Translations under genes and position numbers: made by a program
Shown here: positions 5,128-9,501 of the stretch, one piece after another
How the letters are laid out: each line of letters begins with the position of its first letter
Position numbering within the stretch: position 1 is the stretch's first letter
Source of the DNA: Methanosphaera stadtmanae
GTDB lineage: Archaea > Methanobacteriota > Methanobacteria > Methanobacteriales > Methanobacteriaceae
Assembly (NCBI GenBank): GCA_015062805.1
Contig: SUTQ01000005.1
Location: forward strand, 1 to 64,000
Length of the DNA stretch: 64,000 nt
Direction of reading: 5' to 3'
The notes under the pieces: model-generated
The model's input: the letters and a program-made list of their open reading frames with translations, nothing else
The model's database searches: none
What the model was told of the DNA's origin: nothing

Positions 5128-5209
5128 ATGTACATTATGTACATAATTTACATAAATAACATAAAAAACATTTAATACATTATGTTATTTATGTACATAG
5201 ATTTAAATA
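5128..5209 (+). promoter_or_regulatory. Operator cluster and leaderless promoter of the AbrB-TIR pair
   Basis: Three copies of the palindrome ATGTACAT occur at 5128-5135, 5137-5144 and 5191-5198. A perfect 16-bp inverted repeat has arms at 5149-5164 and 5180-5195 (core ACATAAATAACATAA and its complement). A TATA-like TTTAAATA (5202-5209) is centred about 27 bp before the ATG at 5233, so the mRNA is likely leaderless. The repeats sit just upstream of the TATA box, where a repressor or activator could bind. The AbrB-like product is the obvious candidate. Confidence 0.6.
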
Positions 5210-5232
5210 TTAGTATCTTTATAAATAATATC

Positions 5233-5427
5233 ATGAAAAATTACACAGTAAAAGCTAGGCAAAGACAAGGGACAAATTCCATTGATTTAACATTACCTGC
5301 CGATATCAGTAAAGAATACTCCATTTCAAGAGGGGATATCTTTAAAATCGATCCTGTGTTAGAAGATGACACTTTAAGATTAGAGTATACATTAATATAT
5401 CAAAGCAAAACTAAAAAAGAGGATTAA
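5233..5427 (+). CDS. AbrB/SpoVT-like DNA-binding protein, 64 aa
   Basis: A small basic-then-acidic protein with a swapped-hairpin AbrB-type pattern: KARQRQGTNSIDLTLPADIS, then SRGDIFKI and a final beta strand. Proteins of this type are often antitoxins or local repressors. I chose the ATG at 5233 because a TATA-like box lies 27 bp upstream and the domain begins there; the 17 extra codons available upstream are hydrophobic and unlike the family. It ends one base before the next ATG, so it forms a tight operon with the TIR-like gene. The upstream inverted repeats suggest autoregulation. Confidence 0.75.
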   Translation: MKNYTVKARQRQGTNSIDLTLPADISKEYSISRGDIFKIDPVLEDDTLRLEYTLIYQSKTKKED

Positions 5428-5428
5428 A

Positions 5429-5899
5429 ATGAATTTAAACAATTTTAACTTATTCATCAGTTATTACCACGTAGATAAATATTTTAGGGACAAACTTAGT
5501 AAAATGATAGGAACTCACTTCAATACAAACTCTTCACCACACAAGTATGAAATTTGCCACAATTTTACTAAATATACTGAAGAATTAAAGAAAATATCCT
5601 CAAAAAATGATATTTTCATAGTTCTTGTTGGAAAAGAAACATATAAATCCGAAAATGTTGATTGGGAAATCGATTTCGGATTACATGAAGATGCCTGTGT
5701 AATGGGGTTATGCTTACCTACAAATGATGATTATTTAAAATCAGATATTAATCCAAAAATAATTCCGGAAAAACTTTTGACCAATTTATATTCTGGTTAT
5801 GCATCCTATTTTGATTGGACGGATAACTATGATGATTTGGAATCATATATTGAAATATCATTAAACAATAAATTGACTAAACATCCGTTATTCATATAA
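5429..5899 (+). CDS. TIR-like domain protein (MTH538/ThsB type), 156 aa
   Basis: The protein has the TIR-like (DUF1863) pattern: NLFISYYHVDKYFRDKL at the start, a central strand DIFIVLVGKETY, and VDWEIDFGL, where Glu80 matches the conserved glutamate of catalytic TIR domains. This family includes MTH538 and the ThsB sensor of the Thoeris anti-phage system, which makes a nucleotide signal from NAD+. No ThsA-like partner is visible. It is soluble, with no membrane segment. The ATG follows AGAGGAT inside the AbrB-like gene's end, so the two are translated together. Defence signalling is an inference; the family assignment is firmer. Confidence 0.72.
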   Translation: MNLNNFNLFISYYHVDKYFRDKLSKMIGTHFNTNSSPHKYEICHNFTKYTEELKKISSKNDIFIVLVGKETYKSENVDWEIDFGLHEDACVMGLCLPTNDDYLKSDINPKIIPEKLLTNLYSGYASYFDWTDNYDDLESYIEISLNNKLTKHPLFI

Positions 5900-7951: not shown

Positions 7952-8304
7952 TTTTTTTTGAATCAAAAATCGTTTTTTAAATCACTTATTTTTTTTATTA
8001 GAATAACATTTTTAATTCAAATACTTTATTTTAGCATTTTAATCTTTTTTTTCAGTGAAATTCTATTGTATATATCTTTATTAACGATTTTTTGTTATTT
8101 AAATTTAAAAATATTATATATTTTATCTTTATTTAATTAAAGATACATTTATATAAGACTTTAAAGTTATAACTAATTATATAAATTAAATAGGTTGTAA
8201 TTAATAAAACTTTTTAAATGTTTTTTAATATTTTAATAAAATAACAGTTATTTTTATATTTTCAAAGATTAAATTGAATATTCTTAACAATATCTAAGGA
8301 AATG
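7952..8304. other. Noncoding AT-rich spacer
   Basis: Extremely T-rich first half, then AT-rich sequence up to the CARF gene. I see a possible promoter region but no credible gene; a hydrophobic open frame here is composition-driven. Confidence 0.6.
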
Positions 8305-8310
8305 ATGGAA

Positions 8311-9501
8311 ATGTCTAGAATAATGTTTGTATTGTCTGATGAATTTCATGTATCTATGGATAAATCAAAAGAACATTTATCAAAAATGATTTATGAGGAA
8401 AAAATTGATTTAGTAGTAATAGTTGCATTTCCTGATATTTTAAACTATATACCTGATTTAAAAACTTATTATAAAGACAATTATGGTGAAGATCTTAATT
8501 TAAATGTTTTAATCATTAAAGATTTAAATAATATGGATTATGTTTTTGAAAGATTTAAATATAAAATTAACGAGTTTCCTAATTCGGATATAACAATAAA
8601 TTACACAAATGGTTCAAATAAATTATCAGCTATTGGTATAATTATTGCCCGATTGTATGGCTTAAAGATTCAAGATAAATTTGAAATAGAGGATACAGCA
8701 AAATTAAGTGAATTTAATGTAGTTGATGAAAGAAATTCTGGAAGTATAATGTATATAATTAAAAAGTTATTTAATAATTATAGTTATAATATAGCAAAAG
8801 AACTACTTGAAGAGAATTACAGTGTTTTAAATGTGGTAGAACAAAGATTTTCTGGAATAATTGATTTGTATTATAGATGGGATTCATTTGATTATATTTT
8901 TAAAGATTATGGTTATTTAATTGATTTCTTCACAAATTTGGAATCTTTACCTGAAAATATAAAAGCTTTAGAAATATTATCTGATAACAATAATAAGTTA
9001 TTTAATTCATATAAAATTGCAGATTTAATAAATAATGCTGGGCGGAGAATTGAAGAAAATAGATATGATGATGCTGTAATCAGATTGTATAAAACATTAG
9101 AGTTGATTTCTGAAGTTGAATTATATGAAAAATATGGTATTAAAAAGAATGATGTTCATATAAATGAACTAAGAGAACTTAATATTGATAAGCAGTCTCT
9201 TAAAACAATTATTGATAGGTTGGATTATAAATATCCTAAATATAACATATCCTTAAAGTCATCTTTCTTTTTACTTCAAAAGTTATATGATGATGTAGGA
9301 AAACATTATTATTACAACAAGGATCAGTATCAACAATTATTCCAAAAAAGGAACATTTCAATATTAGTTCATGGAAGTTATACTTATAATGTTGTAGAAG
9401 TTAATCAAATGTATGAATTGGTAGTTTCAATGGCAAAAAAATACGATAAGGATATGGATAAATATTTGGAAGCTACAAAATTTCCTAAATTTAAAATATA
9501 A
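8311..9501 (+). CDS. CARF-HEPN protein (Csm6/Csx1-like, TIGR02710-like)
   Basis: The 396-aa protein has an N-terminal Rossmann-like CARF domain: strand RIMFVLSDE, strand IDLVVIVAFPD, and a ligand-loop motif TNGSNKLSAIGIII at residues 99-112. The C-terminal half is helical with RRIEENRYDDAVIRLYKTLE and a HEPN ribonuclease motif R-N-x5-H, RNISILVHG, with Arg347 and His354. In this family cyclic oligoadenylate bound by CARF activates RNA cleavage by HEPN. No cas genes or CRISPR array are in the window, so it stands alone. AAGGA supports a start at 8305 or 8311; ATGs are also at 8302 and 8305. Confidence 0.78.
   Translation: MSRIMFVLSDEFHVSMDKSKEHLSKMIYEEKIDLVVIVAFPDILNYIPDLKTYYKDNYGEDLNLNVLIIKDLNNMDYVFERFKYKINEFPNSDITINYTNGSNKLSAIGIIIARLYGLKIQDKFEIEDTAKLSEFNVVDERNSGSIMYIIKKLFNNYSYNIAKELLEENYSVLNVVEQRFSGIIDLYYRWDSFDYIFKDYGYLIDFFTNLESLPENIKALEILSDNNNKLFNSYKIADLINNAGRRIEENRYDDAVIRLYKTLELISEVELYEKYGIKKNDVHINELRELNIDKQSLKTIIDRLDYKYPKYNISLKSSFFLLQKLYDDVGKHYYYNKDQYQQLFQKRNISILVHGSYTYNVVEVNQMYELVVSMAKKYDKDMDKYLEATKFPKFKI

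Follow-up and report, generated by a model that had tools for sequence, protein, structure and literature searches.

What does a 64-aa AbrB-like protein control when its gene lies directly ahead of a TIR-domain gene and behind a run of regularly spaced palindromes? The question is raised by a locus in the window, the whole 64,000-nucleotide stretch of Methanosphaera stadtmanae DNA that was analysed (contig SUTQ01000005.1, positions 1 to 64,000). A sequence-only reading had taken the locus for a repressed operon of two overlapping genes, with a role in defence or as a toxin-antitoxin pair. The operon, the operator and the TIR assignment stood, whereas the toxin-antitoxin part did not, and both the 9-bp register of the operator and the link to restriction-modification had been missed. 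We consider it probable that the locus is a two-gene chromosomal defence unit in which an autogenous AbrB-fold controller, an analogue of the C-proteins, controls a TIR enzyme. The features on which the argument is built are the following.

5128..5199, no strand assigned: operator of eight 9-bp units, from the sequence and from register counts on homologs
5149-5164 / 5180-5195, no strand assigned: perfect 16-bp inverted repeat, the core of a 19-nt arm pair at 95%
5202-5209, plus strand: TATA-like element TTTAAATA, ending 24 nt before the ATG
5233..5427 including stop (coding 5233-5424), plus strand: AbrB-like (SpoVT-AbrB / putative swapped-hairpin) regulator, 64 aa, probably leaderless
5429..5899 including stop (coding 5429-5896), plus strand: ThsB-type TIR protein, 156 aa, PF08937

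The AbrB-like reading frame starts with the ATG at 5233. The two genes do not overlap as had been read but are separated by 1 nt, and a GAGGA-type ribosome site for the TIR gene lies within the 3' end of the AbrB gene. A search of 61 genomes for TIR orthologs gave close matches in 11 of the 20 Methanosphaera genomes, at 12 loci in total. The AbrB gene is immediately 5' of the TIR gene at every one of these loci (AbrB identity 67-95%), and the operator boxes are present at all of them. The distances of the two proteins correlate across loci (r 0.82).

The second gene encodes a protein of the ThsB family, as the sequence-only reading had held. It matches ThsB_TIR (PF08937) with 1.1e-10 and 42.2 bits, above the curated cut-off of 21.2, and the PADLOC ThsB model with 6.4e-6. 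The PDB entries that best match its AlphaFold2 model (pLDDT 81) are 8fz9, a TIR of B. cereus, and 8wcf, the ThsB of E. coli, the structural comparison with ThsB that had been proposed; the model also shows a weak structural likeness to N-glycosidases. Sequence similarity to the solved ThsB proteins (BcThsB 6LHY, EcThsB 8WCF) is weak, with E values of 0.0044-0.029. Glu80 in VDWEI, which had been picked out as the conserved glutamate, is aligned with the glutamate in the WVRYEI motif of BcThsB, by position Glu85, which is catalytic (PMC10022894). A catalytic-type glutamate is present at 11 of the 12 loci, with Asp instead in G007, and the gene is under strong purifying selection (dN/dS 0.04-0.08). 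From its family membership, the protein most likely works on NAD+ in the manner of ThsB, either as an NADase or as a cyclic-ADPR-isomer synthase.

Although the TIR-like fold, the aligned catalytic glutamate and the size are common to this protein and Thoeris ThsB, there is no adjacent ThsA here and the partner is an AbrB-type regulator. No ThsA-like neighbour was seen at any of the 12 loci. None of the 13 Methanosphaera genomes searched encodes SIR2_2, while the control genomes were matched; a STALD search for ThsA was silent in the control genomes too. Thoeris type I was rejected on the SIR2_2 result, and the locus is distinct from Thoeris as first read, as far as SIR2-type ThsA in these genomes is concerned. 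The absence of SIR2_2 would also fit a regulated Thoeris-like signalling system with an unlinked effector, in which the nucleotide signal of the TIR enzyme is read elsewhere, possibly by an orphan ribonuclease encoded in the window:

8302-9501, plus strand: orphan CARF-HEPN (Csx1-like) gene, PADLOC 1.4e-62, 2.4 kb downstream of AbrB-TIR

A homolog of this gene is present in 9 of the 11 TIR-positive and in 0 of the 9 TIR-negative Methanosphaera genomes, and no Csm1-type Cas10 was found above cut-off in the 13 Methanosphaera genomes searched, this one included. However, the co-occurrence is confounded by relatedness and may reflect relatedness only. The CARF-HEPN proteins of G003 and G014 are only 31-33% identical and unlinked, while G009 and G019 carry the TIR gene and no CARF-HEPN gene. 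CARF domains are known to bind cyclic oligoadenylates, not ADP-ribose isomers. We regard such a relay as unlikely, and the co-occurrence makes a TIR-to-CARF signal testable.

The first gene is harder to place by sequence. The AbrB-like protein in the window matches Pfam MazE_antitoxin (PF04014) with 0.069 and 13.5 bits, which is weak alone, and the family call is supported by the AbrB matches of its homologs and, more tentatively, by the predicted fold. One relative matches PF04014 with 2.6e-4 and 21.3 bits and the AbrB model TIGR01439 with 3.3e-5. The AlphaFold2 model (pLDDT 83) has C56, MazE and C68 as top PDB matches, each with E of at least 0.02 and all of them AbrB-like. The protein would be expected to form swapped-hairpin dimers, and its gene is under purifying selection (dN/dS 0.05-0.18).

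The operator gives a clearer picture. The three ATGTACAT palindromes described earlier were found at 5128, 5137 and 5191, where they form units 1, 2 and 8 of a ladder that reads, in order, ATGTACATT ATGTACATA ATTTACATA AATAACATA AAAAACATT TAATACATT ATGTTATTT ATGTACATA, then GA, then the TATA-like element. Units 3-6 contain the half-site ACAT and unit 7 contains ATGT. The 16-bp inverted repeat near the TATA box is perfect, as first noted, but it is better described as part of the 9-bp ladder, of which it is a by-product, and it is not conserved as such. The ladder ends 2 bp before the TATA box, and the last ATGTACAT box overlaps the BRE region (5196-5201). The distance from the ATG to the start of the last box is the same, at -42, in 12 of 12 loci (the box reads AAGTACAT in G009/G019), and a TATA-like element sits at one and the same place in all 12. 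These fixed distances agree with the leaderless mRNA inferred earlier, and the abrB-tir transcript is probably leaderless. Going upstream from the last box, an outer box is reached after 45, 54 or 63 bp. Between the outer boxes of the homologs, ACAT half-sites fall 28 times on the grid and 5 times off it and ATGT half-sites 9 times on and 0 off, which combined gives 37 on and 5 off.

A run of four ACAT spaced by 9 bp and free of mismatches is found once in the 2.1-Mb genome, in this operator. No second 9-bp grid and no other in-register close ATGTACAT pair was found in the genome; one other close pair (C37:25910) has an 11-bp spacing. A global AbrB regulon was ruled out on these grounds, and since the grid has no second copy in this genome, the regulator appears to serve its own operon alone.

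The same protein family and the same operator occur in other settings. The AbrB profile recovered relatives of about 40-50% identity in Methanobrevibacter and one Methanosphaera, and a scan of GTDB genomes found others in Methanomicrobiales, Methanothrix, Woesearchaeota, Asgard archaea and Micrarchaeota. A survey of another archaeal phylum, centred on G053, yielded nothing and was uninformative. The relatives were collected by protein sequence alone. Type II restriction-modification genes adjoin the AbrB gene in 15 of 21 non-TIR homolog loci (a raw count, with haloarchaeal plasmids included), and in 10 of those 15 the operator region separates the AbrB gene from an endonuclease gene that diverges from it. 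The neighbours are as follows, with the calls for G152, G111, G125, G127 and G088 taken from near-identity of protein starts to scanned relatives.

G108, G127, G111, G018: MvaI/BcnI endonuclease and C5 methylase
G152: MvaI/BcnI endonuclease, where the contig ends
G128, G125: REase_II, C5 methylases and Vsr
G088: Vsr-like gene
G063: ResIII/Mrr
L080: MunI and MT-A70 methylase
L081: two TdeIII enzymes and a methylase
L084: REase_II with N6/N4 and D12 methylase
L086: N6/N4 methylase
L088: C5 methylase and HNH endonuclease
L097: SacI-family endonuclease and C5 methyltransferase, beside a haloarchaeal AbrB homolog (Haladaptatus, plasmid)

Two loci, L082 and L096, lack a clear restriction-modification neighbour and show one full box each, which counts against the controller reading; L096 is the second plasmid homolog, with a single box and no restriction genes. 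At three Methanomicrobiales loci (L077, L079, L083) the AbrB homolog adjoins an uncharacterised TIM-barrel (AP_endonuc_2-like) gene, accompanied at L077 by a GIY-YIG nuclease gene; the TIM-barrel gene may be a partner in restriction or repair that has so far gone unrecognised.

Upstream of the AbrB relatives the usual boxes are ATGTACATT - AGATACATA - AAATATTAA - ATGTACATT, and those of Methanomicrobiales are ATGCACATA ATGTGCATT AAGCGCTAA ATGTGCATT. Boxes were called when at least 7 of the 8 letters of ATGYRCAT were present, and letter shuffles served as control. Box-to-box distances were multiples of 9 in 61 of 63 cases over 30 AbrB upstream regions, a count in which many sequences are related and which does not represent independent events; the shuffles are expected to give about 0.5 pairs at multiples of 9 in total. 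Box pairs in the 9-bp register occur in 26 of the 30 regions and the remaining 4 have a single box. Distant relatives mostly share the grid, and the register is kept even where the AbrB proteins of two groups are only about 40% identical. The Haladaptatus locus, found by a plasmid search after the 9-bp rule had been set, has ATGTACATA ATGTACACA AATCACATT in register.

The restriction loci bear directly on the toxin-antitoxin idea, in which the TIR protein would inhibit growth as an NADase, while the AbrB-like protein would both neutralise it as an antitoxin and autoregulate the operon. The layout of a small two-gene operon with an AbrB/MazE-fold gene first, as in the autoregulated MazEF and VapBC, would suit a type II system of this kind, as would the perfect co-occurrence of the two genes at 12 loci and the correlation of their distances. 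However, MazE and VapB have long toxin-wrapping tails, whereas the AbrB-like protein has only about 8 variable residues past its predicted DNA-binding fold and its relatives have a tail that is shorter still. The same family and operator are paired with unrelated endonucleases (MvaI/BcnI, MunI, TdeIII and SacI families), and three more distant TIR homologs (L025, L063, L064) occur without AbrB. We therefore judge a toxin-antitoxin pair unlikely and rank it below a controller. One family and one operator code serving unrelated effectors means that the common role should be transcriptional control, not the neutralising of one toxin.

A further alternative is a housekeeping or metabolic TIR or deoxyribosyltransferase-like enzyme with an autoregulator and no part in defence. 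The low dN/dS of the TIR gene, a neighbourhood shared by several species and the likeness to N-glycosidases would be in line with this. Most AbrB-TIR loci share ArsC-like, zinc-ribbon and PRiA4_ORF3-like genes as neighbours, and with this partly conserved setting and its strong purifying selection the TIR gene is less mobile than typical defence genes, a point against our own reading, as is the Asp of G007. Against a metabolic role, the TIR gene was not found in 9 of the 20 genomes of the genus, and the unit changes its genomic site (L019 and, in G009/G019, L021; G003 holds a second copy). The nearest relatives of the controller serve restriction-modification, and bacterial TIR relatives sit in plasmid multi-TIR clusters. 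We hold a housekeeping function to be very improbable. A clean empty-site comparison was tried and set aside: G012 keeps part of the neighbourhood and lacks the pair but carries other insertions, and in G001 the ArsC-like gene alone is left on the stretch compared. Carriage of the pair by a virus or plasmid was likewise rejected, with AbrB unmatched in viral contigs and phages and TIR unmatched in phages.

Returning to the controller reading, there is a functional likeness to the C-proteins of type II restriction-modification. Those are very small DNA-binding proteins encoded beside the effector gene, with a spaced-box operator overlapping their own promoter, and the AbrB-like protein, a presumed DNA binder, has the same arrangement. 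C-proteins have a helix-turn-helix and GACT/AGTC C-boxes, while here we find a putative AbrB swapped hairpin, an ATGYRCAT 9-bp grid and a TIR effector; by analogy, the AbrB-like controller would work like a C-protein, but it is not a member of that group. C68 and C56 of Sulfolobus pSSVx and pSSVi are short archaeal AbrB-fold proteins, as the protein here would be. The binding sites of C68 include a region separating divergent genes and the BRE of its own promoter (PMC5569661). However, their motif is TATG(C/GG)TTTTC, with no 9-bp ladder reported and no tie to restriction or TIR. MraZ and HsdC of Mollicutes autoregulate by binding direct repeats, short and evenly spaced, in the promoters of their own genes, and HsdC controls restriction-modification (PMC5282649). 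Their periods are 10 and 11 bp and their motifs differ, whereas the boxes of the AbrB family here are palindromic and spaced by 9 bp.

We propose that swapped-hairpin dimers of the AbrB-like protein would occupy neighbouring ATGYRCAT palindromes along the 9-bp grid. As the last box abuts the BRE and TATA elements, a filled ladder would block TBP/TFB and repress the leaderless abrB-tir mRNA, and the negative feedback would keep the amount of TIR enzyme low and constant. The TIR level would rise only once the controller is diluted, upon entry into a new cell, or lost, and the enzyme itself may be switched on post-translationally by infection. At restriction loci the controller would hold back the endonuclease during DNA methylation, as C-proteins do. 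The family would play for type II restriction-modification in archaea the role that helix-turn-helix C-proteins play in bacteria.

Archaea carry many restriction-modification systems, and we know of no description of a controller family dedicated to them. The AbrB relatives and their ladder beside restriction enzymes across archaea point to a previously unnoticed master switch for defence genes. If this is true, one small family with the operator code ATGYRCAT/9 bp would explain the control of archaeal restriction and of at least one TIR gene, and an immune-type TIR enzyme would be under control of the same kind as a restriction enzyme. The code would also be a search pattern for more defence genes, and the ladder a simple system in which to study how the AbrB fold reads DNA. 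The most far-reaching form, with pan-archaeal AbrB-fold controllers on a 9-bp ladder, swappable effectors and, in addition, a TIR signal to the orphan CARF-HEPN protein as a pair undescribed before, seems distinctly improbable to us. Literature searches for AbrB with Thoeris, AbrB with restriction control and Methanosphaera TIR found nothing relevant, in a coverage with most subscription journals outside it.

A few minor observations may be added. In every pair compared, the AbrB gene has diverged less at synonymous sites than the TIR gene beside it (pS against G006 is 0.24 for AbrB and 0.54 for TIR), a hint that the first gene is constrained at the nucleotide level or has undergone conversion. 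L063 and L064 come from two other genera of the family, and after the AbrB-less TIR gene both encode a conserved protein that has a membrane segment at its N terminus and matches nothing in Pfam or PADLOC. This protein may be a membrane effector linked to the TIR; at L063 two TIR_2 genes are also present alongside. In G009/G019 (L021 6199-7936) the AbrB-TIR unit lies directly 3' of a NAMPT-like gene (NAD salvage), as read from sequence only. The TIR relatives on bacterial plasmids (L098, L099, L100) occur in clusters of at least three TIR genes, which adjoin genes for patatin-like phospholipase, TPR or deoxyribosyltransferase-domain proteins.
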